From NCBI GenBank assembly GCA_030407315.1, contig JALQPE010002763.1:62001-126000 (forward strand): DNA of 64,000 bases, in the 5' to 3' direction. Both the position numbers and the translations under genes were made by a program. Shown here in pieces: positions 8,129 through 50,567 of this stretch (positions are counted from its first letter, which is position 1; every line of letters begins with the position of its first letter). The stretch is from Asparagopsis taxiformis. Its lineage: Eukaryota > Rhodophyta > Florideophyceae > Bonnemaisoniales > Bonnemaisoniaceae. The notes under the pieces were generated by a model. The model had not been told where the DNA came from. It did not search any database and worked only from the letters and a program-made list of their open reading frames with translations.

Positions 8129-8146
8129 CACTACTGTGTCTGAAAT
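8129..8146 (+). repeat. Left terminal inverted repeat of CACTA-like element
   Basis: CACTACTGTGTCTGAAAT is the inverted partner of the right end (31852-31869), with mismatches at positions 9, 12 and 16. The CACTA start is the hallmark of the superfamily. The preceding AC (or GACC overlapping the first base) is repeated after the right end. Confidence 0.85.
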
Positions 8147-8149
8147 CGG

Positions 8150-9310
8150 GCCTGGGGCAGTACTGTACGGCAGTAAAATTTACTGCCTGAGGCAGTAAAA
8201 TTTAGTACTGTAAAAATATAAATTAATGCCCTACTTGCCGGCAGTACAGTGCACTGCCCGGAGGCAGTGGCCATGTGCTGCCGACGGCAGTAGAAAGTAC
8301 TGCCTGGATGTATGACGTGAGGCAGTGGTGGGAGGCAGTGATAGTTGCTGGATTTAGATTGCCTTTCTGGCAGTGATTTGTGCTACATTGGCCTGTAAAA
8401 TAAAGTAGTATATTGTGCTGACTTGGGCAGCACGGGGAGGGAGTAAAATATGCTGTCCAGGAATATGGCCCACGGCAGTACTATTTGGTGGCGTGGGATG
8501 CACCGTGTGGCAGTAGAAGCTAGTGTTTCCGGCAGCGTGCTGTGCTGGCTGCAGGCCCTAATGACGGCAGCACATTTTGCTATATTTAGGTAGTGCCCCG
8601 ATGTACTGTATGATACTGCCTGCAGGTCATGGCAGAGGCAGAGAAATGTACTGTATTCTATTATTGGACAAAGCAGTAATTTCTGCTGCTGTGTGGTGCT
8701 GCTTTTTTTGTACTTACAGGTAGTGACAAGTCTATGTTCTGGCAGTAGAGTAATGCAGTGGAATATGATGACAGCAGACATGCTTCGAGGCTGTGTATTC
8801 TACTGCCTGTGGAAGCGAGTGGGGACAGTAAATTATGATGTCTGACGAAATGTGTGAAAGCAATGAAATGAGGTGCTGATAGTCTCTGGGAAAAGCTGCC
8901 TGATAGTACTGCTTTATGATACGAAAAGTGCTACCGTACCGTGCTACTTGCCGTGGTGGAAAGTGCTGCCGTGCTCTACTACTTGCGTATGTGTAAATCA
9001 CTGCCACGCTGTACTGCTCCAGGATATGTGAATTGCTGCCCCACAGCACTACAAAAAGTAGTAGATTTTGATGTATTATAGAGCTGTCCAGATCAGCGTA
9101 AAGTACTGTCTGATAGTGTTGTACTCGACAGGGGCATAGGACAGTACCAGTTACTGCCTGTGGCAGTGCAGTGTACTACCTGGAAGTGCTACCTGTGGCA
9201 GTACATTTCACTACCTGGAACTAGTGCTTGAGACAGTACAATTTACTGCCGGGAAGTCTATACTGAACCAGTAAATTGTAGTGCCTGGCGGTACTGACTC
9301 GGACAGAACG
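8150..9310. repeat. Left subterminal repeat array of GGCAGTA / TACTGCC
   Basis: More than twenty copies of a GGCAGTA-like motif lie here in both orientations. Some form palindromes such as GGCAGTAAAATTTACTGCC near 8175-8193. Copies decay with distance from the terminus. In CACTA elements such arrays are bound by an element-encoded protein (TnpA in maize En/Spm) and are needed for transposition. The open frames on the minus strand in this stretch are side effects of the repeats and are not called as genes. Confidence 0.85.
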
Positions 9311-10736
9311 GGAAAGTAGTAGAATATGATGCCTAGGGTAATACTTTCTAGTGCCTACAATTGATGTTCAGGACGATAGAATGAGGTGGAAATGCCATTC
9401 CAGCCGCATGTTCAGGCATCTGGCTACGAAATGTCGGGCAGAATGGAGTATCTCTCTCGGTGGTCTTCATAGAAGTGTATAGGGATAACCAAGTGTGATC
9501 TAAAAGGATGTCAGAATTTTTATGTAGCAAGGACAACGATGCCTGAAGGATTGTTTCAGTTCTATCATTAGACTAGACTACTCATAAAATCGAACTATCG
9601 TATCTAAAATCTTACTATCTCTACAACCAGGACTATTGTGCAAGCAAATCGAGTTCCTTGCTGTTTCAAAACTACATGTGATGTTCAGACAGGAGGGAAA
9701 TAAACACCATTACAGATGATTTGCAACAGGTTAGCAATCGGATATAGAAAAGTATTGTAAAGGATGAGAAGAACATGAGTATGAATGGAATGAACAAACT
9801 TACCATCATTGAACTATTTTTGCGTGCAAAGGTATTGGTTGTAGGTTGGAATGACGAAAGCTTGCAAGCTTTCGTCATTCCAACCTATAACCAATACCTA
9901 TGCCAGAATCATTTGCAATCAATAGACTAGAATAGGATCAGCGAAGAACGATATTTATGGTTAGTGCACTATCTTTCATGGAAAGCATGTGGAAAGAAAT
10001 GAGAGAGGGGAAAGATACCTACTCGACAACGTACCAGCCTTACCTGTCATCTTCATGATAACCGGATGATGAAATGGTCCTATACGTCGCGCATCAACAG
10101 CCTTAAATAGACAGCTCATCCACTCATAATGACCTCGTCGTAACTGGAAGGCAGATGATTTGGCAGACGATGATGTGGCAGATGATTTGGCAGCGGATGA
10201 TCTGTCAAATTTTCTGGACGTGATAAATTAGCAGAAATAGAAATCATGCCCCTACGCAATGTCAAACCAACCTAAAAGTCTTGGTATTGATGTTTAGCTG
10301 CATACTGAAGGAGAAACATCGAATAAATGCTGTAAATTAGAGTAGTAGACAATCCGAAAGAGAATTGCAACCGTGTTCTCATCTATATATAGTTTATTAC
10401 CATAACAAGATTACTATTGAGGCCTATTATACCATGTACTGAAGCTAAATTGTAAATGATTCGTGTATTTCATTCAGAAAAGGAAGCAGGAATCGTTGGA
10501 GGCATTAAAGATCGCTGAAGAACCCAACATGGGAAATCAAGTCACCTGTTCCTTGAGTTAGGTAGGACACTAGTCAGTGTGAAGTTTTCGATAAGATGTA
10601 ACGGTAAGAAAATATAGGTACTATAAACTATTACAGTGGCCTGGTTAAAAAGAGACGGATACCATCTTATTAGTTGCCTACTAGTTGACATTAATCCACA
10701 ATTTGTGCAAGGTTCTCTCGAATCCAAAGAGAAGAG
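9311..10736. other. AT-rich non-coding left arm of the transposon
   Basis: No gene is supported. The stretch holds a 68-bp palindrome (9831-9898), a run of GATGATTTGGCAG-like short direct repeats near 10150-10205, and a TATATATAG run near 10383. The transposase start at 10737 follows, so its promoter probably lies in the right part of this region. Confidence 0.5.
9831..9898. repeat. 68-bp near-perfect palindrome without spacer
   Basis: Two 34-bp arms meet directly at CTTG|CAAG. The left arm begins GGTATTGGTTGTAGGTTGG and the right arm is its reverse complement with a single mismatch. A palindrome this long with no loop could form a cruciform. It is not related to the other palindromes of the element. 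It could be a small insertion, a replication or excision by-product, or a protein-binding site. Confidence 0.85.
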
Positions 10737-13700
10737 ATGAAACGAACAGCTGTTCGGAAGAAAGGTACACCTCGAAGAACCCGGAGAAGGTTTGAATCAT
10801 TGCCAATCCCATACGAAAGTGGGACAAGGCACGAAAATGGGGAAACCCCGCTAGTTTCGAACGAAACATTCGAGGTTCACGCCGATATACCGGACGAAAA
10901 CGTCGGAAAAGCATCTGCTGAAGACGAGAATATTTCTAGTGGCAATGGAGAAGAGCACATTGCATTTTTTGAGGCTGGAAAAGTTACCAGAGAAGAAGAA
11001 ACGATAGGCTCTGAGGAAAGCTCGGCCGAGAGCTGTGATGACCACGACGGAGAAGAGGCAGCGGAAGATGACCGCGGACTTGTGGATAAACTGCTGACCT
11101 GGCCAGTATTCTCTGCAATAATATTGCTTAGTGGAACGCTACGGATGAAACGCAAGGACTATGAAGGTATGCGTGAGATGTCTAATTTCAAGCGGGACAT
11201 TTCGGATCAAGCACCCAGCGACTCGTACATGAGGAAAGTCATTTTACCGTTCATTCTGAAAACATGTTTCCCACAAAGCATGGATACAACGTGTGAAATA
11301 GATGTAACAAAAAGCGGCTCTAGGCTTGGAAAGATGTCTCCAGGACTGTCTAGTAGCCGTAGAGCTCATTGTACTACATCGGTACGAGTCGTGCTACCGA
11401 GCACATGGGCGGAAAGGGATATACAGACCGGACCCATTCTGGACTGCATAAAGTCTAGTAAAAGGGATAGTAGTGATGAAAGAGAAGATGAAGCATATCA
11501 AATTGCTTCAGAAAGTATTGAAAACTCTTTCATTGTCAAATGCCGTTCAGCTGTTCTGAATGACCCATTCCATCGCATTTCGGTAAGTGCATCAGATCAT
11601 GACGGTCACAAGATGCACAGAAAGGTATACGCCCGACATGGAGACGAGTTGAGGATCATATGTATGCCGACGACAAATCAAGAGGCCCTGGTGGCTAAGC
11701 TGGGAGGAGCCAGAACGAAACAGGGAAAGAACATCGAAACTGGAAAGAATTCTAGGAGCAGAAGAAGTTTTACAGCAAGGAGTGACTGGAGAATTGAAGC
11801 TATCATCATTGCAAGTTATCTTGCAACCGGAGAAGAACAACAAGAATCAAATATGGAAGATGTGATAGGCCCGCAAATCGATGCAATGGAAGAAACTGAG
11901 AAAAGAAATGCGAGGCGTGTCGTCTCCACCACAACGCTCGACGGAGAACATTGCAACAATGATATTCGGGCAGGTGACGCTATCACTCTGTTTCGGCCAA
12001 AAAGTAAGTCTGATGGGAGCACATTTGAAGAGTTACTACTCGTGAACAGACATCTGAAAAAGGGACGCTCTGAACATGCGACTTTTCTCATTTGCTCCAC
12101 AAGGGGAGCAACTGGGCAGCTACATCGCGAACAAATTCGGGTGAAAGACGTCCAGCTCATAGGAGCTCCAGACAAGAGGTCTAGATGGCACCCCGGCTCT
12201 AAACGTATGGATGCCTGCAGTGAGGGGAATCTTTCAGATGGCAGGAAATATATCGTATACCGATTTCTGCTATATGCTGATGACTTCCAGCCGTTCACAA
12301 GCCGGAAAGGAAGTTTTGGTGGCTGCTATATGCTTCCATTAGGCATACAGCCAAGCAAGAGAGCAAGCTTCCACGCAGTCCGCGTTCTTGGATTCGTTCC
12401 CCCGGGAGTTTCAACAAATGTTGTAATTGAGAGAGTTGTACCCGACATTGTGAAGGGAAGTACAGACGGTTTTCCAGCGAAAGATGCAAATGGAGAAGAC
12501 GTGGTCATATTCCTGGATCCTGTTGGATTTATCGGAGATTACCCAGCTGTTTCGCATACTCTGGATGTCCGTGGACACACCAGTAATACACCATGCCATA
12601 GCTGCATTTTCGAAAAGCAAGATATGAGCAGCAGTGGAGGTTCACGAAATGCATACACAGCATTGCTAAACAGTCAGATGAGTACGCATGCCCGAGGAAT
12701 GCACCGAAACAAGCTTGTGAGGGAAGTCGCATCGCAAGATCAGCTCAAAGTTCTTGGACTAAGCCTAGATCCGATTGAGAATAAGGCACTCCATAATTTG
12801 AGTGAATCCCTTAATCGTGTGCGGAGAGGAGTTCCTACAAACGAAGAAGGAGTTCCAGTTGTTCCTTGTCAATTCGATCCATATCGCTCTGCTGTAGTTG
12901 CCCCAGACCATCTGCTCTCCGGACTGGCTCAAGATGTGATGAATGCGACAATCACCGCAGCAACACCTGTACTTCGAAATGTTGCGGAAACAGTTCTACT
13001 GAATACCCTCCGAATGTTCTGTTTGAGTAGTCAGAGTCAGGTATTCGGGCAGAACTACCTATTATCGATGAACATGAGCGATATATTCGCTGTTCTCGTT
13101 GTAGCTCCCCAAGCATTTTATTCGGCATTTCGTATCGTCATCGGGAACTCTTGGGACGGGTATGAAAAACTTGAACGTATTCTTCGTTTGCTGAAAAAGT
13201 TTCAAATGGTTGTTGCCAGCATTCGATTCATCCCAACATGGTGGATAGATGGACTTGAGTCAACCAGGAGGTTCGAGGCCGAGAATGGCGGACGTCATGA
13301 CCACATTCTAGCTCTTGTTTCAGACTATATGAAAGAACTGCATGAGGTATGCAAGAAGGATCCTATTGCAATGAAACATCTGGACAAACCGAACTTGCAT
13401 CGGTTGATAGAATTTTGCGTACATACATTACCAGCTTTTGGAGCTGCGAAACATGTGGAAGAGCTTTTATTCGAGAGAATGCACCAGCCTCTTAAAAGAG
13501 GGGTTCGAAACTCGAACCATAAGAATGAACATCTGTCATCAATGGAGCTCATCATGGCCGATGACTGGCTCGCACGAATAGCCATCACGCTGGGTGCGGT
13601 AGGTCACAATACAAAACAATGGACGTCTGCCGATTGCAGACGCGTGTATTTTGCACTAGGAAAAGGAATTTCGGAGAGTCCACATGCGACAGAAGAGGCA

Positions 13701-14438
13701 GCAAAAAGATGCTTCTTAAGTCCTGTATTCCATCTCATATCAGAGAGGAGCAGTACTATGGTGAGCACCCACTGTCCAATCACGCGGTGGCGAGGGGAAT
13801 CTGTTGAAGACGCGAAAAATGTTCCGGCAGAAGAAACCGTCATGATGGCAAGGATACGTAAAGCTTCTGAAACTTTTCTCAGAACCAGACAGGTAAACGG
13901 GTCTCAACATGGTGAACGACTATGGTGGCTCACTGCTGCACAAAGAGTGCGCACTAGTCATGAGGGATCTGAGAGCGAATCGAGGTTAGGGCGTGCTGAA
14001 CCTGGAAGCATCATTCAAGCAGTGTGCAAAGATGGATGGTATGATGCTGGTATAGTAGTACCCGCCCATAGCAGGACGAGCATGGAGGAATTCACATGTT
14101 CCAGACGTGTCCTTTTCGTCACATTGTCCTTTTTTATTGTGGTAGGGCAAGGAGAGGAGAAGAAGGCAAAGAAATGGAAGCAGAAAACTCCATATGCTGT
14201 CTGCATTCCCTTGACATGCACTGGAGACGGTATGTACCGGAAAGGTGGGAATGATACTATAGTTCACGTTGAAATGAACGACGGGGTCCGAGAAGTTTTG
14301 CACGTACATAACTGCGAGTCAGGAGTTTGTTCATACGATAGACAAAGTGGCATTGTAGAGCACAATAGTGATATTCTTTCTGGTGGTGAAGTGAGCGTCT
14401 TAACTAGAGAAGATGGATACCCACCACGTTCAGCATAG
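10737..14438 (+). CDS. TNP2-like CACTA transposase, intronless (1233 aa)
   Basis: This protein probably cuts and moves the element. It starts at an ATG followed by a basic stretch (KRTAVRKKGTPRRTRRR) that could be a nuclear signal, then an acidic region to about residue 120. Features that match the Transposase_21/TNP2 fold as I know it are YADDFQPF and the SFGGCYMLPLG block (about residues 510-535), then FLDPVGFIGDYPAVSHTL with RGHTSNTPCHSC (about residues 590-625), and FGAAKHVEELLFERMHQPLK with RNSNHKNEH further on (about residues 900-930). These would supply acidic catalytic residues, a Cys pair and the FER..K helix. Related KDZ transposases share some of this, but the CACTA ends favour the present call. 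No intron or stop is visible, so the gene may be active. Confidence 0.78.
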   Translation: MKRTAVRKKGTPRRTRRRFESLPIPYESGTRHENGETPLVSNETFEVHADIPDENVGKASAEDENISSGNGEEHIAFFEAGKVTREEETIGSEESSAESCDDHDGEEAAEDDRGLVDKLLTWPVFSAIILLSGTLRMKRKDYEGMREMSNFKRDISDQAPSDSYMRKVILPFILKTCFPQSMDTTCEIDVTKSGSRLGKMSPGLSSSRRAHCTTSVRVVLPSTWAERDIQTGPILDCIKSSKRDSSDEREDEAYQIASESIENSFIVKCRSAVLNDPFHRISVSASDHDGHKMHRKVYARHGDELRIICMPTTNQEALVAKLGGARTKQGKNIETGKNSRSRRSFTARSDWRIEAIIIASYLATGEEQQESNMEDVIGPQIDAMEETEKRNARRVVSTTTLDGEHCNNDIRAGDAITLFRPKSKSDGSTFEELLLVNRHLKKGRSEHATFLICSTRGATGQLHREQIRVKDVQLIGAPDKRSRWHPGSKRMDACSEGNLSDGRKYIVYRFLLYADDFQPFTSRKGSFGGCYMLPLGIQPSKRASFHAVRVLGFVPPGVSTNVVIERVVPDIVKGSTDGFPAKDANGEDVVIFLDPVGFIGDYPAVSHTLDVRGHTSNTPCHSCIFEKQDMSSSGGSRNAYTALLNSQMSTHARGMHRNKLVREVASQDQLKVLGLSLDPIENKALHNLSESLNRVRRGVPTNEEGVPVVPCQFDPYRSAVVAPDHLLSGLAQDVMNATITAATPVLRNVAETVLLNTLRMFCLSSQSQVFGQNYLLSMNMSDIFAVLVVAPQAFYSAFRIVIGNSWDGYEKLERILRLLKKFQMVVASIRFIPTWWIDGLESTRRFEAENGGRHDHILALVSDYMKELHEVCKKDPIAMKHLDKPNLHRLIEFCVHTLPAFGAAKHVEELLFERMHQPLKRGVRNSNHKNEHLSSMELIMADDWLARIAITLGAVGHNTKQWTSADCRRVYFALGKGISESPHATEEAAKRCFLSPVFHLISERSSTMVSTHCPITRWRGESVEDAKNVPAEETVMMARIRKASETFLRTRQVNGSQHGERLWWLTAAQRVRTSHEGSESESRLGRAEPGSIIQAVCKDGWYDAGIVVPAHSRTSMEEFTCSRRVLFVTLSFFIVVGQGEEKKAKKWKQKTPYAVCIPLTCTGDGMYRKGGNDTIVHVEMNDGVREVLHVHNCESGVCSYDRQSGIVEHNSDILSGGEVSVLTREDGYPPRSA

Positions 14439-15145
14439 AGTGTTCCAGCACAGTGTTTAATACATCAGTAAACTTTCGTAATTCATTTAGCAGCAGTCCT
14501 GATCAAGTCTTCCAACAAATGCTATACAAAATTTGTACATGTCGTTTGAAGAATAGAGTGGGATTTTGTTCCATGCGCACAAATAAAGTGTGTTTTGCGA
14601 AGAGCGTACGCACTTACGTACGTATGACGCCATTGGTACTAGAGATGGAGCCGCGAGTTGCAGGACTCCTAGTTCCACAAAGTTGAGTTCGCATAATCCA
14701 ATGGAGAGCTGGCACCTGGCCAATGAAGTGGAAAATAATACCCGGTATAGTTTTCTGGCTCCAGTGACAAGTGGAGTATTGTGACTGATGGCTGTCTGCT
14801 GGCCAATGGGGAGCCGGCACCTGGCCAATGAAGTGGAAAATAATACCCGGTATAGTTTTTTGGCTCCAGTGACAAGTGGAGTACTATGATTCATGGCAAT
14901 GGGATGGTTTTGGGAACGAAGGAATTGTGTGTGGGAAGTCCTTCGTCGAGGAATGACAGATGGCCGAATACAATTGGAGCGCGTGGAAGGTGAATCAATA
15001 ACTGATATTTCACGTTTAGACGTGTAGGGAGATCGTTTCCCGCCAAATACCACCTTGAAAGAGGAATATCTCTTGATCGTGTAGTCGGAGAGAAAAGGTA
15101 TCTTTGTTATCCTGAACGGCTTCTCTACGCGTCCAAATCTTTGCA
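14439..15145. other. Intergenic region downstream of transposase with palindrome cluster I
   Basis: The 707-bp gap between the transposase stop and the next gene has no supported ORF. It holds two copies of a 68-bp unit at 14711-14778 and 14816-14883, each with a half-degenerate AATAATACCCGGTAT core. The part after 14890 is probably the leader of the downstream gene. Confidence 0.6.
14711..14883. repeat. Palindrome cluster I (two 68-bp direct copies)
   Basis: Both copies begin GGCACCTGGCCAATGAAGTG, carry AAAATAATACCCGGTATAGTTTT, and end in CCAGTGACAAGTGGAGTA. The core is the same as in clusters II-IV, but its right half (TATAGTTTT instead of TATTATTTT) is mutated in both copies, so the two arose by duplication after that change. 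Confidence 0.85.
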
Positions 15146-18100
15146 ATGGCCGGAAGCGACACTGAGCGCGCTGCGGAACCAAAGGATACCGTCGAAAGCG
15201 TTGCAGAGAGACTTGCAACGACGGTAGGCGGTGATAAAACACCCTCCGGAGGTTCTGCTGATGGAGGGGCTCCGTCTGCAGCGGGAAGGGAGACGGCAGA
15301 TAGCCAGACACCCATTCAGGGAGCAGACGCTGCCATGATAGAGGCAGCAAAAACCCTTGGTGATATATCACCATCTGGGAAAAACACTCTACGCTTTCCA
15401 TCTACTCCTGGGACGGTGAAATCGAAAAACAGGGAGAGGTCTAACGTCCGTGAAGGCGAGGGGAGTCCTGCTGGCATGGAAGCATCAGAAGAGTCTGTGA
15501 TGGGGATTGACATCAACATTGTCGAATGCAGGACTGAACCTAAAATGATCAATCCGCTAGATGTTGCCAAACCGGAATCAACTTCTCGTCTTGTGCAGGA
15601 GGCCAGAGTGCGCGATCTGGTCAGCAAAATATCTACCGAGGGGTTTCTGGAAACTGGCACCCGAATGACCATCTGTGAAACAATGGGGTCAGACGGACGG
15701 AAGAAACTGCAGTGCATTGATGGAGGTCATCGTATCAGCGCTTTGCAGTCGATTGTGGAAAACAAACCGACAGTTGCTGATCGATGGAGACTGAGGAGCA
15801 TTAGCGTTGACTTCATCCGACCACCTGGAACCCGTGAAATGTTTCATCCTCTTGAAGTGATGCGAATATCGCAGAAGCTGAACGAAAAGACTCATGACGT
15901 GATAGAAGTTTCTATTGCTGACCACGTCTGTACGGTCATGAAGTTCATGATGATGAAGGGCTTGATGAAGGCGAAGGTAAATGTGTGCACAAAAGTTGTA
16001 GTCGAGAACAAGGTCATTCCAGGTTGTCAGGAAGGAATCATGATGAAGTACGTTTCGATTGCGCAGGGCTTCGGAGACGTAAATAACCCGGCGTTCGAAC
16101 ATTGGTCAGCTATCCCAAGTCGATTTGCAACTGAAACTAGTCCGCCAGACTCGAAGAATATGCAGGGATGCACTGTGGACGTCCTATTCGCTTCTGCGTT
16201 TCGAAAAGCTTCGGTGGACACCAAACTTGTCATTCTAGAGCTCACTGCAATGTGGACGATGTGGAAACGTAGGAAAGGAGATGGTGGTATAAGTCTAAAG
16301 ACATGCGCGCAAAAGTGGTGCTACAGCATGTGTGAAATATATGACATACTTGAGAAAGCTGTACGGAAAGAAAACTCCTGGCATTCCTCACCTCATCCAT
16401 GTTTCAGGAAGTTACATGAAGTACCGGAGCCAGGTGGACGAACACGAAAAACCATACGATATCGCATTTTGACTGTCCTCAAAGATTTCTATCCTTCCGA
16501 CGCACCAACTGGGAGAGGTATACGTGCAGCATTGACGCGGTCTATGATGAAAGAAATCCGTTATGTGGTTTTCAACGGCCCAATTCTATCGGATGACTCT
16601 CTCGACCATTCCGTCGCGCCTGAAATAGGTGTGCAGGAAAGGCGGACTAGGCGAAAATCCTTGGAAGGGAATACTGCACCTCAACCACGACAACAATCCG
16701 CATCGTATGGTGATACTTCAAATGCTGCCATTGATCGCTCGGACGTGGTACAGAGTCCAAATGTACTTACCCAACAGCAGACACAGGGCAGTCTGGAAAT
16801 ATCGGATCGTGTTAACGCTGAGGTCGGTGCTGCAACACAGGTTGGTGAAGAGGCGACAGGGAAAGCGGCAGATTCCGAAAGCGCAAAGCAGGTTACAACG
16901 GACCGCGCAGTGCCTACTGCGCCTACCGAGAACAATTCTTCGAAACCTGGAGATTGTGAAGTTGGGGATGTGTTGCAGAAGAACGTAGGAACTCAAGAGC
17001 TTGAACCAACTGGTGCAAATCGAGGAAGAAATGACCACGGTGATGAAAATGACCTGCAACAATCACCTAGCCCAGTGGCAGCCGGAAGTGCCACGCTCAG
17101 ACCAGAGCAGGGTGGAAAGTCGCCGGCGAATATGTCAGTTGGTCATCCAAGAACTGGTCGAGATGGTGAAGGAGGTCCTGAATCTAGGAAGAGCGATGGG
17201 TCTGGAACGAAAGATGTCCGCGAAGAATGTCCCGAACATTCTTCTGGAAGGACAACGGAGGACCCGATGAAAGGTGTACGAAATCAGGGTGATGGCACTG
17301 GAGACGCTATGTTATCTACAGCGGATGTCGGCCTACCTGTTTTACCTGAGCTGGAGGACACGGAAACACCTGTTACCAGTTCTACGCCTAGGAAGTTGAT
17401 GAAAGCCAAGCACAGCAGTGGTTTCGTGCCCTTAAAGGCAAAGCCGAGGAATACGGAGACGCCGCCAATGATTCTACGATCCAAACGGAAATTGGTGGAT
17501 GTCACCCCTCAAGAGGTTATTGACCTGGTGGGAGAGGATACCAGCAGGCCGCGGCAGAAGAAGAAGCAAAAGATGCGTGAAGACGCAAATTTGCAATCCG
17601 GCAAAGACGCTGCAGTCCACGCGGTTCAAGGAGGTCAGTATTCGGACAGGCAACAAAATGATGTCCCTGACAAAGATGTGGAGGAAGGTATAGAAGCGAA
17701 ACTGCCTGTTATCATTCATCCCGACAGTCGAATGAAATACTATGTGAATGGGAAACTGGTCGATACGCTTCGAGCCGAGGTCGCTGAAGCAGCAGCGAGT
17801 GCCTATTCGGCACAAAATGTTTCCGCTGAGTTTCTCTCGAGGGCTTATTTCCGAGAGAAACGAAATGAAATAGACTTGGTTGGGTTTACAATTCTGGACG
17901 GAATATTCAAGTCTTCTACTACTGCAGATGCGATCCACGAACTGCTCCTTCATTTTTCTGCGTTGTTTGAGGAACGTCTCGAGGATGCCAAGAAGAACTC
18001 TGAATCCGGTGACACCCGCAGAGATCCGGACTGGACACCGTGGTGCATGGCTATGATGGATGGGAAAAACTCTGATGAAGAAGGTGAGAAGGGCAGAGGA

Positions 18101-22729: not shown

Positions 22730-23416
22730 TCTGCAAGAATACTGCTTTGCCTCTCCCTCTACAGGCAGCATCTGCCAATCCTAAGCTAGCTTCGGTAGTA
22801 TACTTCCTTTACCACAACTAAATCTACTCCTATTCATGACTTTGAAAATATTAGCACGGTCAGTCTACTGCACTATTAGAGTTCCTCTACCTCTCACCCC
22901 GCATAGCTTCTACACCCTACATCGTACAGACTGATCTCTTTTCCTTTCCTACATGCATGGCACAGTTTTGCAAGACTGCCACAATTCCACATCACTCGAG
23001 TAACCAAGGTCTTGAATTGTTCTTCTTAGTATACTAACTATAGTTGAGATGCAAACCTGGCAGCCAATGGAATTGCTGCACCTGGCTTGCCATGCCAAAA
23101 TAATACCGGTATTATTTTGGCATGGCAAAGCCCAGGTGCAGCAATTCCATTGGCTGCCGCTGCGTTCATGACAGCCAATGGCAGAGCTGCACTTGGGCTG
23201 GCCACACCCAAAATAATACCGGGTATTATTTTGGCATGGCAAAGCCCAGGTGCAGCACTATCATTGGGCGTGGGCTGACTGGCACCGCTCAGCAAATGAA
23301 AGTCTGTTATTATCGCTCAGGTAGATTGTAGTACTACAACGTTGTACGAGTTCAGATGCAAGACTTTTTATTGCTGATGGTACTCTTGATATCTGTAATT
23401 GGACGCCTAAACTGTC
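22730..23416. other. Convergent intergenic region with palindrome cluster III
   Basis: The stop codons of the plus gene (22729) and the minus gene (23417) face each other across 687 bp. No ORF is supported. The palindromes at 23059-23280 sit between the two 3' ends. Confidence 0.6.
23059..23280. repeat. Palindrome cluster III (99-bp hairpin plus a second copy)
   Basis: The inner part, 23090-23125, is a perfect 36-bp palindrome around TACC|GGTA. The outer arms continue with GCAGCCAATGGAATTGCTGC on the left and its inverse on the right, so almost all of 23059-23157 can pair; the only visible defects are small length differences near TGGCTTGCC/GGCAAAGCCC. A second, less regular copy follows at about 23170-23280 with core AATAATACCGGGTATTATT. 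Confidence 0.9.
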
Positions 23417-26400
23417 CTACTTCTCTGCAGTCCAGTAGCGCGATCCATAGTCAACGAATATCTCTTCCCCAGCTCGAACATCTACTACAACCTGCGCTAG
23501 GATGAGATCAGGTTTTGCTACTGCATACTTGAAGTCGCAAGTAGGATTGACGTCTTTGTGAACTCGGAACTCTGCATTTTTTCTGCGTTGCACATTTGCA
23601 ACTCTCTCCATTCCGTCAATGGTCCTACTGTCGTTGAGGTAGCTGCAGACATTGTATTCCGCTGGTACAAGATATATCTTGTCGACCGGTGCTTCTTCTC
23701 CGATGACACTGGTCTCCATCTCCATGTTGAAGTTTTGGAATCTTTCACCAGTACAACCGAACCCGTCCGGTCCGTACAAGCGACTGCGTTGCGGTTCATT
23801 CTCCCCAATCTTCCCGTATAAAATTGTCCCATTATACCATCCAACAACAGAGCCCCTCTCTAAATCTTCTGCGGCAAAAACCCCCAATCCTCCCTCTCGA
23901 ACTGTCGATGCAGCAACAATAACGTTGTGAAAGGAGGCATCTACTGCAAGCATCATCTCAGGGTCAACGGAGAAAACCTTGCCTAAATCTTCTACGCCCC
24001 ATTCATTCATTGGGACTTCGGCAAGTCTTCGGAGCATGCTTTGATCCCGCGCAACAGAGGAGACAAATCGCAACATATGCAGTGGTAGTGAAGATACCGA
24101 CGGGAATCCATCAGGCGCATCACTTCGATGTCGAAGTCTTTCACTTCCTACATTGCTCCTTATCGAGTAATTCCATTCTTTGTTAGCGAGAATACTCGAT
24201 ATGTCATTTTTGGTTGCCTCCCCAAAAACTCCATCTCGACCTTGCCTAACAAAGCAATCCAGCAACAACGGCTGAGCTGATCCATGGCATGTGGCGTCTT
24301 TTTCACATCCAATAAACTTGCGATACAGACCATCTCTCATTGTCATGCAAGCTATTGCAGTAGAATACGTTCCGGAGAATAGATCTACCACAATGTCTCC
24401 TGGCTTTGAAAACCTTGAAATAAGCTCTCGAAGTATGGACAGAGGCTTCTGCTCCGCACGTAGCCTTTTGTCTTCGAAGTTCAATGACTCACCAGGTCCG
24501 AGCTTTGGGCAGTTGTCGATTGCGTTCACGTACCCTGGATGTCGTGAAAGGTCACGGTTATGCAAAGAATAATCAACCATTTCAAACGCGGCAGCTCCCA
24601 TCCCACGTTTGAAACTGTGCACAACAAACTCGTGAATGTTGTGTAATGAACACGATTTGTTCATTGGGTTTTGGATGAATACGTAGGGACGACGGCTTAG
24701 AATGAGAGGAACATCGTCTGTACGCATGGATTGTTCCCCGCTTTCTGCATTTTGAAGAGCTTCTCCCCACCCAACCAACTGTTTGATACTGGAAAATATC
24801 AGGGCATGTCCTCCAGGGCGCAGCATTCGAGAAATGTCCTTTCCAGTACGAAACATTTGTGCGCTATTGATGTCATCATAGTCTGAATTGGTCTTGCCTT
24901 TCTCCCTCCGCGTGTTGAAGGGTGGATCGGTGAGCACAAGTTGTGCTTGTCCATCAATAGTATTCCCTGAAAGCATGCCAATGGAATCAGTGTTAACCTG
25001 GTGCACTAACCTCGAGGCTGTACAGTTGTAAGCCACGCAAAATCTCTTCATGACCTTTTTCAATTGCACAATATGATCCGGTACCCCCTCTTCCTCACCC
25101 ACTGCCTCCGCTGACGGTGTATCCTCCGCAACATCTTGCATAACCGTGTCCATTGCGGACGAAGCCCTCCCATCCATGCTGGATGTATACTGGGATCCAG
25201 AGTCATTGGTAGGTTTCCTTCCACCTGTACCTAAACGGCGAGTGCTGTGCTGCATTGATTCATTCGACTCAAGACGATCTCTTTCTCGAGAAAGAGATCT
25301 GGATGCTGCGTTGCGCTGTTCAGTCTCGTAGAGAATTTTCAAGTCGCAGACATCAACTGGCTTCACACGCATTTCACGGTTCCAGTTCTTCCATACCTTG
25401 AGTCTTTCGTGACCATCCAATGCGATGGATTGTTCTATTCTTGCTTCGATGAAGGCGTTCAATCCGAACCGGTCAGGCTGATGGAAAAATTTAGTGCGCA
25501 GCCCTTCCATCTGGTTCGTACTTGATCCGAATACATCAATGCCTATCATACAGTCATACACAGACACTAGTACGGCTTCTGTCAAAGACCTCAACCTTGC
25601 ATCAACAGAGATATCCAAAGTGCCTGGATAACCTGCATTCTCGCGGAGTTTCACTACCGGGGACGGAAGCAGAAGATCTGAGTAGTGGTCAGGATGTGCC
25701 CACCCGTCAGTACGATTAGCAAGACAGATGAATTGGAATTTCTCAGAGTCGAAAACCATGTATGGGCGACACATCATGTAGGCGCTTTCGAAGCCCAGAA
25801 TCATCGCTGTTGTATCCCAGGCAGACATGACCCTTTCCAAAACGACACCCACAGACTCTCCGTTTGCTCTTGTGCGCTGGAAAGGGGCGAATGTAGAAGT
25901 CTCTGTATCCCTCCCAGTTCTACGACGCTTCCTACCCCGGCGAATGGGTGCATTTCTGCGTCTAGTGAGGGCAATGTGCACAAATGAAATCATAAACATC
26001 AGCCTTCCAAATACTTTGTCTTCTTCTGTTAATGTTCTACCCTGTGCACTTCTTCCAGAACGAAAATACTCACAGGTGAGGACTTCGCGACACAATGGAG
26101 AAGCAATTTCACCACTTGTAGACATCCCAAACAACTGCTCGCCGACTGATGCTCTTTTCTCGAGAGATGTGGGAAACTCCTTCATCGCAAAATTGTTCTG
26201 AACTTCCACCGGCCTTCCCCATACAATACAGAACAACTGCCACAGACAGCGAACCATTTTGGGATTGGGTTCTTCTATGCGACTGTAGGGGCGAAGCACA
26301 CGAAGAATTGACAAGCAACTCTCGTACTGTGGCTGCCTCAGCACAGTTTCTGCCAAATCTTCGCGCTGAGATCCCACGGCGAGCCATCGCCTAATGGATG

Positions 26401-26926
26401 GCATATTCACGTCGCGAATTGTAACCATGCTTGAGCTTCCTTGTTTTTCACCTGCGTTTCGCTCCCAGTACCCATCTCTAAGATCCAAAGTAAGATTCAG
26501 GTACTCAATGAAAGTCATCCTCTTCTGCCTGGATGCCATATCGTTCGCGTTTGATGCTTTCACACTATCTAGAAGGAAAGCAGCACTTGTAATCGGAGAT
26601 ATGTCGACTTCTTCTTCAATCATAGGAACAGTGAAATCACGCGGAAGCTCACCGTTCTCTATGAGCTTGATTACAGCTTTCGAACGATGCGCACCATCCA
26701 GCACCTCTACCTCACCGGCAATGATCCGACCGGTAATTGGGTTGTTGTCATTGTAGCCGTAAACCTGAATGCTCTCGGCAATAACATCGACGTGCCTGTA
26801 GTCGATTTCTCGAATCTCGACATATCTTTTGATCTTGAATGGGTCGATGTGCAATAGCCCATTGCGCCGCTCACCATGAAGGGGACGCCCAGAGGTGCTC
26901 GCTGGATTTCTCTTCTCAGAGGCCAT
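23417..26926 (-). CDS. ParB-like / DPPF DNA methyltransferase / SET domain triple fusion (1169 aa)
   Basis: Three domains are visible. The ParB-like part, residues about 25-120, has EVLDGAHRSKAVIK (D77-R81), where Ala replaces the usual second Gly. Residues about 640-880 hold a DNA methyltransferase of the N6-adenine/N4-cytosine type: LTDPPFNTRR (D667-F670) and, later, IVVDLFSGTYSTA (about 842-854). The catalytic motif before the AdoMet motif is the beta-class order. Residues about 1005-1165 form a SET domain: REGGLGVFAAEDLERG, then CSYLNDSR, and VRAGEEIFVDYGSRYW at the end. SET enzymes methylate protein lysines, mostly on histones. The combination would let one protein mark DNA and chromatin. 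No intron or stop is visible. The start is the first ATG, and the 5' end faces the gene at 27658 across 731 bp. Confidence 0.85.
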   Translation of the reverse strand: MASEKRNPASTSGRPLHGERRNGLLHIDPFKIKRYVEIREIDYRHVDVIAESIQVYGYNDNNPITGRIIAGEVEVLDGAHRSKAVIKLIENGELPRDFTVPMIEEEVDISPITSAAFLLDSVKASNANDMASRQKRMTFIEYLNLTLDLRDGYWERNAGEKQGSSSMVTIRDVNMPSIRRWLAVGSQREDLAETVLRQPQYESCLSILRVLRPYSRIEEPNPKMVRCLWQLFCIVWGRPVEVQNNFAMKEFPTSLEKRASVGEQLFGMSTSGEIASPLCREVLTCEYFRSGRSAQGRTLTEEDKVFGRLMFMISFVHIALTRRRNAPIRRGRKRRRTGRDTETSTFAPFQRTRANGESVGVVLERVMSAWDTTAMILGFESAYMMCRPYMVFDSEKFQFICLANRTDGWAHPDHYSDLLLPSPVVKLRENAGYPGTLDISVDARLRSLTEAVLVSVYDCMIGIDVFGSSTNQMEGLRTKFFHQPDRFGLNAFIEARIEQSIALDGHERLKVWKNWNREMRVKPVDVCDLKILYETEQRNAASRSLSRERDRLESNESMQHSTRRLGTGGRKPTNDSGSQYTSSMDGRASSAMDTVMQDVAEDTPSAEAVGEEEGVPDHIVQLKKVMKRFCVAYNCTASRLVHQVNTDSIGMLSGNTIDGQAQLVLTDPPFNTRREKGKTNSDYDDINSAQMFRTGKDISRMLRPGGHALIFSSIKQLVGWGEALQNAESGEQSMRTDDVPLILSRRPYVFIQNPMNKSCSLHNIHEFVVHSFKRGMGAAAFEMVDYSLHNRDLSRHPGYVNAIDNCPKLGPGESLNFEDKRLRAEQKPLSILRELISRFSKPGDIVVDLFSGTYSTAIACMTMRDGLYRKFIGCEKDATCHGSAQPLLLDCFVRQGRDGVFGEATKNDISSILANKEWNYSIRSNVGSERLRHRSDAPDGFPSVSSLPLHMLRFVSSVARDQSMLRRLAEVPMNEWGVEDLGKVFSVDPEMMLAVDASFHNVIVAASTVREGGLGVFAAEDLERGSVVGWYNGTILYGKIGENEPQRSRLYGPDGFGCTGERFQNFNMEMETSVIGEEAPVDKIYLVPAEYNVCSYLNDSRTIDGMERVANVQRRKNAEFRVHKDVNPTCDFKYAVAKPDLILAQVVVDVRAGEEIFVDYGSRYWTAEK

Positions 26927-27657
26927 CGAGAAATAGATTCTTCACCTCAATCAGCCACCAGCAGAAAACAATCTTCTCTCCTACCTGCCGTTAAAAACCT
27001 TCGGCAACAATCTTGATAAACCTTAAATGCACAGTTAAAGAGTTAACCTGAATATTTTCAGGTATACTTTGGCTAGGTAGGGTACGTAATGAGGAATAAT
27101 TAGGTTCTTCGGCGGCCTTTCAATACAATTATTTCGCCAACGGACATTTCCATTTTTGTTTTGAATTTGAAGTCCCCTCGAGAGATTGAGTTTGAAATCT
27201 GCCATCGGAGATTTCAAAACCAATCTCTTGAGAGGACTTCATCTTCTGTTCGAACTTGTAGACTCGTTCTTACAACCAGTATATAAATATACACATTGAT
27301 TTCACTGCATCATTCTCGATCCCTGCGTCTGTTTATACATACACGTCTAGGTTCCGTTATATTGCCACAGCGAAAAATACACCCAATCTACTGGTAATGG
27401 CTTCGAGCAGCTCGGAATAAGATCTTTATTATATGGTGATGAATGTTCAAGAGAGATGATCATCACGATGTTGGTCTCCCATGTCGCTTGGGACAGGTGT
27501 TAGTAATTTATAACCGTTACGAGTTATGCAAGTATAAAAATAGTAACCTACCAATTTTCTCTCTATCATTCCACACGGATACAAGCTGTACAGTTTCGTC
27601 ATCTTTCCTGTTTCCTCAGTCGATACCTCTTCCATTCTTTTCCTGGGAATACCCATT
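26927..27657. promoter_or_regulatory. Divergent promoter region between methyltransferase-SET gene and Tudor-like gene
   Basis: The two genes point away from each other, so both promoters should lie here. It holds a long imperfect inverted repeat (about 27168-27240) and, at about 27281-27291, TATATAAATA in plus orientation. The TATA-like run is some 370 bp before the ATG at 27658, so either the leader is long or the run is chance. No member of the intergenic palindrome family occurs here, unlike in the other transposon gaps. Confidence 0.45.
27168..27240. repeat. Imperfect inverted repeat, about 33-bp arms
   Basis: The left arm GAAGTCCCCTCGAGAGATTG faces CAATCTCTTGAGAGGACTTC on the right, with GAAATCT/AGATTTC pairing nearer the centre and a short GCCATCGG loop. 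It is unrelated to the AATAATACC palindromes. Its place between two divergent genes would suit an operator, but this is inference. Confidence 0.75.
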
Positions 27658-29046
27658 ATGCAAGACCCAACAGACTTTGTCTCCGAAGGATCAGTCATTG
27701 AAGTAGAATGGAGTTTACGAACGAGAGGAAGGAAACAGAAAAAGGTTTGGTGGGGCGCCAAAGTTTTGAGTACTGCCAAGCCGGACGCGTCCGGAGAACA
27801 TCGTTTGACTGGAAACTTGTTTGTTACGCTGCAATATCAATCTGAACACGGTTTCGACCAGTCAGTCTCTACAGCAAAATTATTCAAGAACAATTCGCTG
27901 CTGGACATTGACTCTGGAAACATGCTACGTTGGAGGTTTGGAGAGCAACTAGCACTAGAGCAGACGATCTCGTCTGCGGGTGAAGACAGTTTCCATAAAA
28001 AAGACTGCAAACAAAACTTGTTGAGTCGATCCAAGTCCGAGCCGCGCTTAGTTTGCGATGAGAGTCCTCCTGGTCCTAACATCAATGAGGACATATCCAA
28101 GCTGTTTCAAAAGGTATCCTACCTCGAAAGGCAGATTCTCAACTGTCGCGGTTCATCAAGCGCTACTGGACCCATCTTCGGAAACATTGTGTGCGACTAC
28201 CTGTTCCAGAGAGTTGGCTTAAAACTGGACAAACCCCTGTCCTCCAAAATCACGAAGTCTGAAACAGGCCGGGAAGTGAGCTCCTTGGTGCAAGACTATG
28301 TGACGGCAAGAGCAGATTGCTCGCTTGAACAGTTTTTACAACTTTCCAGGCTATGCGAAGAGAAGAACAACCCAAACACAATTTTCCTGCCGAGCGTCGA
28401 GGCGGTTCGAATTTCAACTGGGAGAGATAAAGAGCTATCGATCCACTTTGGAACATACTATGACCTCTGCAATACTTTAGCTCCTTCCATGTCTACATGC
28501 ACGAACTCTACTATCCTCAAGTGGAAGAAAACACGACACGATTCTGGGTCTTCTGTCATTAGAGTTTTGGGAACTCTAGCAGACAGTGCTTCAGAAGATT
28601 TTATTCCATCTACAAAGGCTGTTCTTGTTGGTTCCTCTTTATACAGGAGATCTGAAAACATGAGTAGTACTGTCGTTCTTACTCGAGAATCTGATGAATA
28701 CGACTATGTCAATTGCAGCTATTCGTATCCTTTGGAAGCTCGCTTCCTCTCAAGTCGAGAAATGCAGGAGAACTTTGAGCTGCCGGACAGCAAAAATTTC
28801 AAACTGGCCAACTCGTTCTCACTGACCTGGAAACCTGTTCAAGGCCCTCGTCCATATGGAACTTTCGAGCGCGTTCTCAAGAATGTTGTGTTGGGAACTG
28901 CATACTTGAACCTCCCAGCATGCATTTTCAGTGGACACACCATCTGCAGCGAGCTAGACACAATTGGACATGACGTTATCGTTGGACAGAATAGTTCCCC
29001 TGTCGATGCACCTCATCCTACCGTACACGATGTCGCCTCCGAGTAA
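27658..29046 (+). CDS. Transposon cargo protein with possible N-terminal Tudor/SH3-like domain (462 aa)
   Basis: The first 90 residues look like a small beta barrel: VIEVEWSLRTR, then KVWWGAKVL, FVTLQYQSEHGFD and VSTAKLFKNNSLLD, with the aromatic WW and the alternating strands seen in Tudor or PWWP-like chromatin readers. I call this by pattern only. The rest (residues about 100-462) is unrecognised; it is not low-complexity and contains a segment CSLEQFLQLSRLCEEKNN and a beta-rich second half. The ATG at 27658 is the first in the frame. The gene is divergent from the ParB/methyltransferase/SET gene and convergent with 29654-31177, so a part in the same chromatin process is plausible but unproven. 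Confidence 0.65.
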   Translation: MQDPTDFVSEGSVIEVEWSLRTRGRKQKKVWWGAKVLSTAKPDASGEHRLTGNLFVTLQYQSEHGFDQSVSTAKLFKNNSLLDIDSGNMLRWRFGEQLALEQTISSAGEDSFHKKDCKQNLLSRSKSEPRLVCDESPPGPNINEDISKLFQKVSYLERQILNCRGSSSATGPIFGNIVCDYLFQRVGLKLDKPLSSKITKSETGREVSSLVQDYVTARADCSLEQFLQLSRLCEEKNNPNTIFLPSVEAVRISTGRDKELSIHFGTYYDLCNTLAPSMSTCTNSTILKWKKTRHDSGSSVIRVLGTLADSASEDFIPSTKAVLVGSSLYRRSENMSSTVVLTRESDEYDYVNCSYSYPLEARFLSSREMQENFELPDSKNFKLANSFSLTWKPVQGPRPYGTFERVLKNVVLGTAYLNLPACIFSGHTICSELDTIGHDVIVGQNSSPVDAPHPTVHDVASE

Positions 29047-29653
29047 AACGTTTTCTATCTTTTCTAGATGGGTCTACAAGACTGTTCAGAGTTAGTCAAC
29101 CTCGATTAAGTCGATGGTATCCATCGATACATGCTCCGTATCTTTCTGGCCTGTTCCTTCGTCCAGGGACTGTCTGCATTCTGTAACAATGATTGCCCTC
29201 CACTTGGCAAAATATCCCTGAAAATAATACCGGGTATTATTCTTAGGTTTCGTCCAGGGATCGCCTGTAGTCGGTACGAATGATTGCCCTCCACTTGGCA
29301 AAATATTCCTCAAAATAATACCCGGTATTATTTTCCGCACTACTCTGCCAGGTGGAGCTACGGCATTGGATGGGACTGCACAGGCCCCGAAGCTACTAGA
29401 GGCGTGCTCAATGACAGGGTAAAACTCTTAACCGTAGTAGACATGACGCTTTCTAGTCGCAGAGTGAGCTGAAAAATAAGAACGATAGCTATTGTTTCCA
29501 GTACACCATGTAGTACGTAGCATGCTAGGGTGCACCTTTTCCACTCATATCCTAGACAGTTTCATATCTAAAGGTTTCTATTTCTCCTCAGTCTGCCTCG
29601 TCGTAATTATTTTACTTCAAAGGTTATGAAACTTTACTTATCCGCTTCCATTA
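29047..29653. other. Convergent intergenic region with palindrome cluster IV
   Basis: This is the 607-bp gap between the 3' ends of two convergent genes. No coding sequence is supported. Two palindromic units lie at about 29180-29350; the remainder has no visible structure. Confidence 0.55.
29180..29365. repeat. Palindrome cluster IV (two units)
   Basis: The core at 29312-29334, AAAATAATACCC then GGTATTATTTT, is a perfect palindrome around a central C. A second core near 29220-29242 has a decayed right end (ATTCTTAGG). Each is preceded by the same block, TTGCCCTCCACTTGGCAAAA, and the last is followed by its inverse CTGCCAGGTGGAG. The flank sequence differs from clusters I-III, while the core is the same. 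Confidence 0.88.
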
Positions 29654-31177
29654 TCAATCTTCCTCATCAAGGAAAACTTCAACGTAGCTTTCACTCCCAT
29701 CTTCTTCATTTCCATGTCCGCTATCCTCCTCAAACGCGGTACTACGCTGTTCCAAGTGTTGTTCATCGAATTTTTCGTTAGTAATTGTCAGTACATCTTC
29801 GCAGAGATGCCTCTTACAGATTCGGTCACTCGGCAACATCGCCTTTCCTAATTGTTTGAGCTCGTCTTGTACACTTTCTTCGAAGGTCTGACCTGATTGT
29901 ACCTTGAAAATTCCTAGAATCCCGGAAGCGATTGCATAGACAAATCTGAGTGAATTGCAGGAACGTCGCAGGAAAACCATTCTACTCGTGCATTGAAGGA
30001 AAGCAATTGCAGTGTTCAGGGCTACCTCCAGGATATTGATTCTCCTTCGAATCATCCTTTTGGCCACACATCCCGATATCTCGACTTCGTACTGAATGAT
30101 GACAACCATCTCTTTCCGCTCAGCGATGAATTGTATCAAGATCTCGGAATTCTTGTCATCCACAACTTTCCGTTCCTCAGGCCTTAGATTTCCGTTGGTC
30201 ACACGGGTATCGGGGATAACATCCATATCTCGAATGAGATCGTGAGTTGGAAACTCGAAAGTGATAGAGGCGTCCGTTTCCAAGACTAGAGCGAACCCCA
30301 GTTCGACAAGGAATCGATGGCGCACCTGCTCTCTAGACTTGTTCAGGAAACCGAGCACCTTTGTCAGCGCAACTTTCGTAACAGCCAAAGATATTTCACG
30401 CTTGCTCAACTGTCCACCATTTCCATCTGTTTTCCTCCGCTTCCTAGCCCCTCCGTCAATGCTTCCTGCAGGCTGGTTTCGGCCATCGCCAGTGGCACCA
30501 TAAACAACTTCTTCGATTATTTTGTCCGGAATGTACTTGTTCTCCTTCCAGACGTTGAACGCATTCGAATCGCGTCCAGAGCTCGAGCCTTCCACTGTAC
30601 GGCCTGTACCCGACTTTTCCTTCTGAATGTTCCGCAGGAGAGACATCACCACTTGGAATCGAAGCTCGATGTTGTTCTTCCCGGTGTTGGATTGGAACAC
30701 ATCCCTCTTGTCATTGCTCTGCTTCGCAAACATCATTGCAGAGAGCAACCTGCAACCACGGAGGTCGTAGATTCCTTGGTTGGTGTAAATTGTCGCCCCA
30801 GCATCAATCTTGTCGACCAGCAAAGGTACAACAGTTCCAAATACTGCACACAGAAAATTGTAAGAAAACGATAGTTCTGCTGACTGCGAGATGCGCAAAC
30901 GGTCCCTGTCCTTGTCAGTCATCCCCTTCTTCGAATTGCCCTGACTCTGCTGTAATAAACCATCACAGATGTCTTTCACACCCTGTAATTCCGTTACTAT
31001 AAACTCGACGCGACTCATCAGCTTTTCGATTTGCTGGCGTTGGGACGTTCGATCATCGTCGATTTCATCCATCCTCTCCCCAATACGACGAACTTCCCCA
31101 GTCACTGTCCTGAATCCCTCTCGAATAATCCCTGCTAGGCAGTCATTTGGATTTTCCTCACGACGCTGAGATTCCAT
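29654..31177 (-). CDS. Coiled-coil transposon cargo protein of unknown function (507 aa)
   Basis: I do not recognise a family. Residues about 15-75 have a heptad-like pattern (VRRIGERMDEIDDD, QRQQIEKLMSRVEFIVTEL) typical of a coiled coil, so the protein may form oligomers. The middle (about 95-190) is hydrophobic and probably globular (SFSYNFLCAVFGTVVPLLVDKI). A basic stretch (GGARKRRKTDGNG, about 245) could be a nuclear signal. The C-terminus is acidic (DSGHGNEEDGSESYVEVFLDEED). It is the last gene before the right end of the transposon and points inward. In maize En/Spm a second small DNA-binding protein (TnpA) binds the subterminal repeats; this gene could fill that place, but only position and basic patch support it. 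Confidence 0.6.
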   Translation of the reverse strand: MESQRREENPNDCLAGIIREGFRTVTGEVRRIGERMDEIDDDRTSQRQQIEKLMSRVEFIVTELQGVKDICDGLLQQSQGNSKKGMTDKDRDRLRISQSAELSFSYNFLCAVFGTVVPLLVDKIDAGATIYTNQGIYDLRGCRLLSAMMFAKQSNDKRDVFQSNTGKNNIELRFQVVMSLLRNIQKEKSGTGRTVEGSSSGRDSNAFNVWKENKYIPDKIIEEVVYGATGDGRNQPAGSIDGGARKRRKTDGNGGQLSKREISLAVTKVALTKVLGFLNKSREQVRHRFLVELGFALVLETDASITFEFPTHDLIRDMDVIPDTRVTNGNLRPEERKVVDDKNSEILIQFIAERKEMVVIIQYEVEISGCVAKRMIRRRINILEVALNTAIAFLQCTSRMVFLRRSCNSLRFVYAIASGILGIFKVQSGQTFEESVQDELKQLGKAMLPSDRICKRHLCEDVLTITNEKFDEQHLEQRSTAFEEDSGHGNEEDGSESYVEVFLDEED

Positions 31178-31489
31178 CTTCCGTCAAACTTCTCCTCTCG
31201 TTCCAATCGCAAAGTGTCACTCCAGACGATTTTCCTGCAACAAGAATGCTAGCAATAGTAACAAATAATGCCAACTACTCTACTCATATCCTCGGAAAAC
31301 GACCGATTTTCTCCTACCTTTTTTGTAACGGTCATTTCCATGTGACCATGCATCCTCTACACTTCTCACTACTAGTAGCTTCAGAATAGTTTCCTCTCTT
31401 CTCTACTTGAACTCACATGCGAACACATTGTACAACCCTATCCTGGACAACTATTGCAACATTGAATCTCAGAAAATACCAATCACCAA
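31178..31489. other. Non-coding stretch between last cargo gene and right subterminal array
   Basis: The 5' region of the minus-strand coiled-coil gene. I see no ORF of substance and no repeat. The promoter of that gene should lie here. Confidence 0.4.
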
Positions 31490-31851
31490 TTACTATCAAG
31501 GCAGTACTTGCAGGCAGTACAATTCACTGCCGGAGCCAGTATATTTTACTGCCTGATTCTAATGCCAGGTCATTTGCCAGGGCAGTACTGTACGGCAGTA
31601 CATTCCATTGCAGAAATCATCAAAAATCACTGCATTGCACTACTGCCCTGTGGTACCAGCAAAAATTACTAGAATTTGCTATCGTACAGTACTGCATTCT
31701 GCTACATACCGTACTGCCAGGAAATTTTGTATTTTACTGCCTGCGGCACTAGAACTGAAAAAATTAAAATAGTAATTTTACTGCCTCAGCCACTACATTG
31801 CTCAGGCAGTGATTTTTACTGCCTCAGGCAGTAACTTTACTACATTTTTTT
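31490..31851. repeat. Right subterminal repeat array of GGCAGTA / TACTGCC
   Basis: About fifteen copies of the same motif as on the left side, in both orientations, among them GGCAGTACTGTACGGCAGTA near 31581-31600, also present at the left end near 8156-8175. The array is about 360 bp, against roughly 1.15 kb on the left, so the two ends are asymmetric, as is common in CACTA elements. Confidence 0.85.
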
Positions 31852-31869
31852 ATCTCAAACTCAGTAGTG
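31852..31869 (-). repeat. Right terminal inverted repeat of CACTA-like element
   Basis: Read on the minus strand this is CACTACTGAGTTTGAGAT. The first codons CAC TAC TGA give His-Tyr-stop in the frame of the interrupted host ORF, so the transposon end itself supplies the stop codon of the truncated antisense gene. Confidence 0.85.
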
Positions 31870-38768: not shown

Positions 38769-38770
38769 GT

Positions 38771-50463: not shown

Positions 50464-50567
50464 TCTGTCCCGAAGGAGATGAAGCATGTGCTGAGACGAT
50501 TTCCCAATGCGCTTGTTCAAGTAGTAGATATCTGTCAAATTCGAGGCCGCCTTCTCTCTCCATTAAG

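Follow-up and report, generated by a model that had tools for sequence, protein, structure and literature searches.

A window of 64 kb from the genome of the red alga Asparagopsis taxiformis (contig JALQPE010002763.1, positions 62,001 to 126,000) was analysed. Positions 8129-31869 of this window are almost certainly a single DNA transposon together with its cargo genes. It is probably a giant cut-and-paste element of the CMCT clade, seemingly intact, with an epigenetic kit of its own, in which one protein joins a ParB domain, a DNA methylase and a SET domain, and two neighbouring paralogues combine a ParB-like start with an oxygenase-like end. The boundaries and terminal features are the following:

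8129..31869, unstranded: whole transposon, 23,741 bp, based on the inverted ends, the AC duplication and the reunited frame
8129..8146, plus strand: left terminal inverted repeat, CACTACTG..., agreeing with the right end at 15 of 18 positions
31852..31869, minus strand: right terminal inverted repeat, ...CAGTAGTG, pairing with the left end
8127..8128, unstranded: AC, left copy of the 2-bp target duplication, from flank comparison
31870..31871, unstranded: AC, right copy of the 2-bp target duplication, from flank comparison
8129..9400, unstranded: left subterminal array of GGCAGTA/TACTGCC, 15 of the 32 matches in the window
31450..31869, unstranded: right subterminal array of GGCAGTA/TACTGCC, 11 of the 32 matches in the window

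The ends, CACTACTG...CAGTAGTG, are identical in their outermost eight positions (8/8) and agree in 15/18 over the full inverted repeat, presenting the 5'-CAC...GTG-3' termini of the CACTA/EnSpm type. The two subterminal arrays hold GGCAGTA/TACTGCC in both orientations and account for 26 of the 32 copies in 64 kb. A long minus-strand frame is broken by the element; excision together with one AC restores 1,129 codons (stop to stop) across the junction. Removal of 0, 1, 2, 3, 4 or 5 bases yielded junction frames of 844, 835, 1129, 843, 834 and 1128 codons, respectively. The five-base removal (1,128 codons) retains the frame of the two-base removal, but its flanks are unequal. Only the removal of two bases gives equal flanks and a reunited frame, thus the duplication measures 2 bp and both boundaries, 8129 and 31869, are placed to the exact base. 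A target duplication of 3 bp was ruled out, as the flanks GAC and ACC differ. The ends and the reunited frame confirmed the span of 23.7 kb proposed by a first-pass annotation of the bare sequence, and the subterminal arrays it had described were recovered as well. Six genes lie between the ends:

10737..14438, plus strand: gene 1, predicted transposase, 1233 aa, motif order of the CMCT clade, no Pfam match
15146..18670, plus strand: gene 2, 1174 aa, ParB-like N-terminus, long linker, oxygenase-like C-terminus with HTD...YH...R
19820..22729, plus strand: gene 3, paralogue of gene 2, in the parts 19820-21643 and 21644-22729 with TAG 21641-21643 between them
23417..26926, minus strand: gene 4, 1169 aa, ParB at about 28-110, N6_N4 methylase at 662-879 (DPPF, DLFSG), SET at 1013-1161
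27658..29046, plus strand: gene 5, 462 aa, unknown, no match to any family of Pfam, NCBIfam, PHROGs or PADLOC under the thresholds applied
29654..31177, minus strand: gene 6, 507 aa, unknown, start coiled-coil-like by eye, weak matches only

Gene 4 carries the architecture of ParB, N6_N4_Mtase and SET in one frame. Comparison with Pfam identified the N6_N4 methylase at 1.2e-13 and SET at 2.2e-5. The latter match covers positions 1-105 of the 105 positions of PF00856 with 25.3 bits against a cut-off of 22.4, a profile-supported prediction of a complete SET lysine methyltransferase domain; its nearest relatives in sequence were, weakly, the histone methyltransferases KMT2D and an EZH2 chimera (0.0094 and 0.018). 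The ParB region matched phrog_1033 at 7e-6 and phrog_4272, a family of unknown function, at 6.5e-8. Searches with tblastn retrieved for it eight phage records (seven Leptospira phages, best E 2e-5, five of the eight annotated as ParB) and nine plasmid records, seven of them annotated as ParB N-terminal domain proteins. The methylase is permuted, with DPPF at 667 preceding DLFSG at 848. According to the parts of PMC8885841 consulted, adenine-N6 enzymes have DPPY, with DPPY/F in N6AMT2, and N4-cytosine enzymes SPPY. The DPPF motif and the permuted order point to a methylase closer to the adenine-N6 than to the N4-cytosine type. With ParB and N6_N4_Mtase inside a DNA transposon, gene 4 has the combination that defines the ParB-methyltransferase accessory proteins of transposons. 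The profile searches proposed in the first-pass annotation recovered methylase, SET and ParB in gene 4, and neither a transposase profile nor a 2-oxoglutarate (2OG) oxygenase profile elsewhere in the element.

The transposase was recognised by its motifs: ADDF at 514, GDYP at 600, CHSC at 620, HARGMH at 651 and EELLFER at 908-914, the last within EELLFERMHQPLK at 908-920. Which motif supplies which residue of the order was assigned by eye. Pfam, in which Transposase_21 is presumably the profile for CACTA/EnSpm transposases, gave no family for gene 1 at E 1 with the whole protein or at E 10 with the core, a result that speaks against the assignment. The CMCT clade (CACTA, Mirage, Chapaev, Transib, Plavaka, ESTA) is characterised, after Kojima in the consulted parts of PMC12730594, by the order D, D, C(2)C, H(3-4)H, E, and further by CA...TG ends and a duplication of 2-5 bp. 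By motif, the element shows this order, CA...TG ends and a duplication of 2 bp, and we infer from it a CMCT-clade transposase on the CACTA/EnSpm-Plavaka side. Since gene 1 lacks a match to a Pfam profile, the CMCT clade is the safe label. The same parts of that study report duplications of 3 bp for its fungal EnSpm families, different from the 2 bp, AC, found here. They give TGT...ACA or CATCA...TGATG as ends of Plavaka, whose duplication length the 2 bp would suit but whose ends are not the CACTA present here, and duplications of 7 bp (Kyakuja) and 8 bp (Zisupton) for KDZ, against 2 bp in this element. The first-pass statement that ends, duplication, arrays and transposase fit CACTA is therefore retained for the CACTA ends, the arrays and the motif order, and given up for the duplication, which is 2 and not 3 bp, and for the transposase profile, which was not matched.

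Alignment identifies genes 2 and 3 as diverged neighbouring paralogues, with 31 % identity over 324 residues (E 2e-42) and 37 % over 343 residues (E 5e-69). Both open with a ParB-like region containing IDGGHR, continue through a low-complexity linker and end in a C-terminal domain built around an HxD...H...R core. In this core HTD is followed by H 71-72 residues on and by R 18-20 residues further, in a region of 37 % identity. The HxE of the TET/JBP PE type is not present; HTD...H...R is kept in both paralogues. By motif, the C-terminus looks like a 2-oxoglutarate oxygenase, the weakest link of our interpretation, and the N-terminus like a ParB domain. A considerable number of results weighs against these assignments. 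No TET/JBP or 2OG profile matched genes 2 and 3 among the profiles searched, and the model of the oxygenase-like domain reached a predicted local distance difference test (pLDDT) value of 34. Kinship to AlkB was not supported: hhalign to E. coli AlkB scored 11.9, below the median of 100 shuffles (median 12.4, maximum 19.9). The ParB-like region of both proteins had no profile match; its hhalign score against the ParB of gene 4 was 25.2, over only 17 columns, where 200 shuffles reached at most 23.9; a phage ParB alone gave 18.3, inside the shuffle range. The ParB model had a pLDDT of 41, and its fold search of the PDB gave nothing below E 3.3. The in-frame TAG of gene 3 counts against an intact kit. 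It would be spanned in frame by a candidate intron of 90 nt with GT-AG borders (21640-21729), one of 36 frame-keeping candidates, which stops just 5' of an SDEQENPLPDR block common to gene 2.

Searches for distant relatives were likewise negative. The oxygenase-like domain had a single match among PDB sequences, a ribosomal RNA processing protein at E 0.77; the domain of gene 2 had no match in phages and that of gene 3 none in plasmids. Four scans of viral contigs for relatives produced 1, 2, 18 and 33 pattern matches, of which tblastn confirmed none. Among PDB sequences a ParB-like profile built from genes 2 and 3 had no match, and the best value for one built from genes 2-4 was E 0.68; in phages the ParB-like regions of genes 2 and 3 reached best E values of 4 and 0.4, both not significant. 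The C-terminus of genes 2 and 3 may thus be another fold with a chance HTD...H...R pattern. This explanation agrees with the lack of profile, sequence or fold support for an oxygenase in the searches made, but HTD, RGDxYH and RSH are invariant between the paralogues, and we regard it as unlikely, if the most serious of the alternatives. The claim of at least three genes with ParB-like domains holds by profile and tblastn for the methylase-SET gene, for the two oxygenase-like genes by motif and one weak profile comparison only. Five genes besides the transposase, as had been counted, remain the correct number if 19820-21643 and 21644-22729 form one TAG-split gene.

New here is one palindromic-core repeat family that marks all gaps with a gene 3' end. 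It forms four arrays:

14698..14897, unstranded: repeat array 1, two units, imperfect core
18975..19400, unstranded: repeat array 2, three units and a degenerate half
23055..23275, unstranded: repeat array 3, two units, of which the first forms a nearly perfect hairpin about 100 bases long
29158..29370, unstranded: repeat array 4, two units

Arrays occupy four of the four gaps with a gene 3' end and none of the three other gaps (left end, divergent gap 26927-27657, right end), a placement with a chance of 1 in 35 for four arrays distributed randomly on seven gaps. They are tandem repeats spaced about 90-118 bp. All copies in the window of AATAATACC (9/9) and of GGTATTATT (7/7) are located within the four arrays. 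The palindromic core is AAAATAATACC(S)GGTATTATTTT; its 11+11 positions are a perfect palindrome in five of the nine units, and in the other four 9-10 of 11 positions pair. Eighteen of the 30 invariant columns of the nine aligned units fall into the 21-position core, which is thus better kept than the arms; outside the core, the units differ in how far the hairpin extends, from nearly perfect in the first unit of array 3 to hardly past the core at the other extreme. A strict palindrome scan (arms of at least 16, loop of at most 8, mismatch of at most 12 %) accepted one of the nine units (23084-23131), and ungapped arms of 45 bases paired at 19-34 of 45 positions; given these values, the term palindromic core is used here in preference to long palindrome. 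The nine units gave no support for a conserved RNA fold: both partners had changed in 3 of 23 pairs, and the covariation term was +0.56. The arrays may bound genes or serve the ParB-like proteins as landing sites, neither reading being favoured. Two more long palindromes of unrelated sequence are present in two of the gaps that lack arrays, upstream of the transposase (9821-9908) and in the divergent gap (27181-27228).

Two alternatives to a single element with a functional cargo were considered. The sequence may be a nested pair, a smaller transposon of transposase and ends that was later invaded by a block of cargo. The 14 inverted pairs of at least 30 nt in the element are the repeat arrays, the palindrome 9826-9903 and the subterminal arrays; a second pair of long ends is not among them, though the scan is blind to ends below 30 nt, and shorter ends would escape. 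The GC content at third codon positions (GC3) of the element genes, 0.42-0.54, overlaps with that of nearby genes, 0.44-0.50, thus base composition cannot separate the cargo from the surroundings, and the values for gene 1 and genes 2-6 are too near those of nearby genes to tell, which leaves room for a nested origin. Cargo and transposase lie within one pair of ends with the same palindromic-repeat family between them, and this argues against the nested pair, to which we assign very little probability. Alternatively, the enzymes may be passive cargo, host or viral genes trapped between the ends in the manner of Pack-MULEs and of no role for the element. Giant algal families with solely non-transposase-homologous genes are reported in the consulted parts of PMC12477816, and the TAG in gene 3 suits such a passive origin. 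However, five of the six element genes have uninterrupted frames of 1.4-3.7 kb, the diverged ParB-oxygenase-like paralogues have been retained next to each other, and one repeat family lies both between transposase and cargo and between the cargo genes; passive cargo is improbable.

Transposons in eukaryotic genomes are silenced via DNA and histone methylation. For the preferred reading, a transposon with its own epigenetic kit, oxygenase chemistry, ParB targeting and self-marking are inferred, and the following course can be proposed. The transposase would cut at the CACTACTG ends, aided by the subterminal GGCAGTA sites. The ParB-like domains may represent a common module for targeting or clamping, by which three proteins are recruited to the element. 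Gene 4 would be the writer, as DNA amino-methyltransferase and SET histone methyltransferase; the putative oxygenases encoded by genes 2 and 3 might erase marks, whether of the host or of the element itself, or modify them further. DNA and histone methylation might keep the chromatin of the element open and transcribable, or mark the element as self. An action of the kit on the element's own DNA or chromatin is conceivable at somewhat less than an even chance. A stricter version, in which matched writers and erasers on a ParB-type module land on the AAAATAATACC(S)GGTATTATTTT arrays as a self-contained, sequence-targeted epigenetic switch, appears doubtful. In another direction, the methylase-SET protein might target competitors or the host genome widely, the kit being a weapon or a system of host control. 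Oxidised methylcytosine over other transposons is discussed in the consulted parts of PMC12730594 for fungi with TET-bearing elements, but three ParB-like starts suggest a specific target, and a weapon or host-control system is quite improbable. If self-marking is true, the transposon would control its chromatin state through enzymes that it encodes itself, a bacterial-type DNA methylase fused to a histone methyltransferase and two likely oxygenases. A toolkit for targeted methylation and demethylation is a possible use, and the link to ParB makes the targeting directly testable.

The start of gene 5 (27658-28000, GSVIEVEW...WWGAKVL) resembles by eye a Tudor/Agenet-type domain, with no profile match. 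The element is flanked by parts of Ty3/gypsy elements (reverse transcriptase, RNaseH, integrase, protease). Genes near the element look single-exon, in keeping with intron-poor red algae; a table for Gracilariales in the consulted part of PMC12502185 lists 0.371-0.733 introns per gene across entries. A fungal origin, to which the parallel with KDZ/TET elements and the gypsy flanks had pointed, was given up as unproven. A repeat of about 750 bp occurs in copies at 13-767, 38769-39516 and 43807-44615 (86-92 % identical), probably long terminal repeats of gypsy elements. The genes at 49528-50562, 54399-55325 and 59199-60266 are related, single-exon and cysteine-rich with hydrophobic starts, and look secreted; their DNA is 65-68 % identical over 373-437 bp, with no Pfam match. 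A tRNA-like Rfam match at 53850-53920 on the minus strand (41.2 bits) was not called by ARAGORN.

Giant Plavaka elements have reportedly been found in Bostrychia (Petroll et al. 2025). For red algae, the consulted parts of PMC12477816 point to giant EnSpm elements that bear multiple accessory genes, citing Petroll et al. 2025 on Bostrychia; likewise giant, of CACTA type and with several accessory genes, they are probably the nearest relatives, a likeness drawn from the citing description only. The same parts describe Sola1-1_Ec32 of Ectocarpus, a giant DNA transposon of 21.5 kb with a 1104-aa protein of ParB-like and N4C/N6A methyltransferase domains, encoded, as here, on the strand opposite to the transposase. 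They cite similar ParB-methyltransferase proteins from green and red algal transposons, and their authors suggest that such proteins bind and modify their own transposon. In contrast to the present element, Sola1-1_Ec32 belongs to the Sola-1 superfamily, and for its protein the description mentions two domains, with no SET and no oxygenase partners. TET/JBP genes are known from fungal EnSpm and Plavaka (PMC12730594, consulted in part). TET-positive EnSpm, ESTA and Plavaka elements resemble ours in a CMCT transposase and an oxygenase gene whose product presumably acts on DNA marks; they differ in the TET/JBP family, in the absence of any mention of ParB in the main text and of a methylase-SET in what was seen of it, and, for the EnSpm families, in the 3-bp duplications. 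HarbingerS and MuDR bear SET histone methyltransferases as well, but are of other superfamilies, and ParB and DNA methylase are not mentioned for them in those parts. The bdelloid N4CMT (PMC8885841, in part) is comparable as a bacterial-type PF01555 methyltransferase in a eukaryote fused to a chromatin module, and different as a host gene with a chromodomain and the SPPY motif. With the precedents in Ectocarpus and other algae, ParB-methylase cargo of transposons is not new. The first-pass annotation knew of no CACTA element with this set. A SET domain on a ParB-methylase protein, or a ParB-oxygenase protein, was not reported among the matches listed in the open literature, beyond which a report may exist; the ParB-methyltransferase precedents and the giant red algal EnSpm elements limit the first-pass statement. 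The first-pass reading, a CACTA-like element with cargo for modifying DNA and chromatin, is kept, with corrections in duplication size and family label and with an overstated novelty. The gene set looks like a new version of a cargo known from algal transposons.

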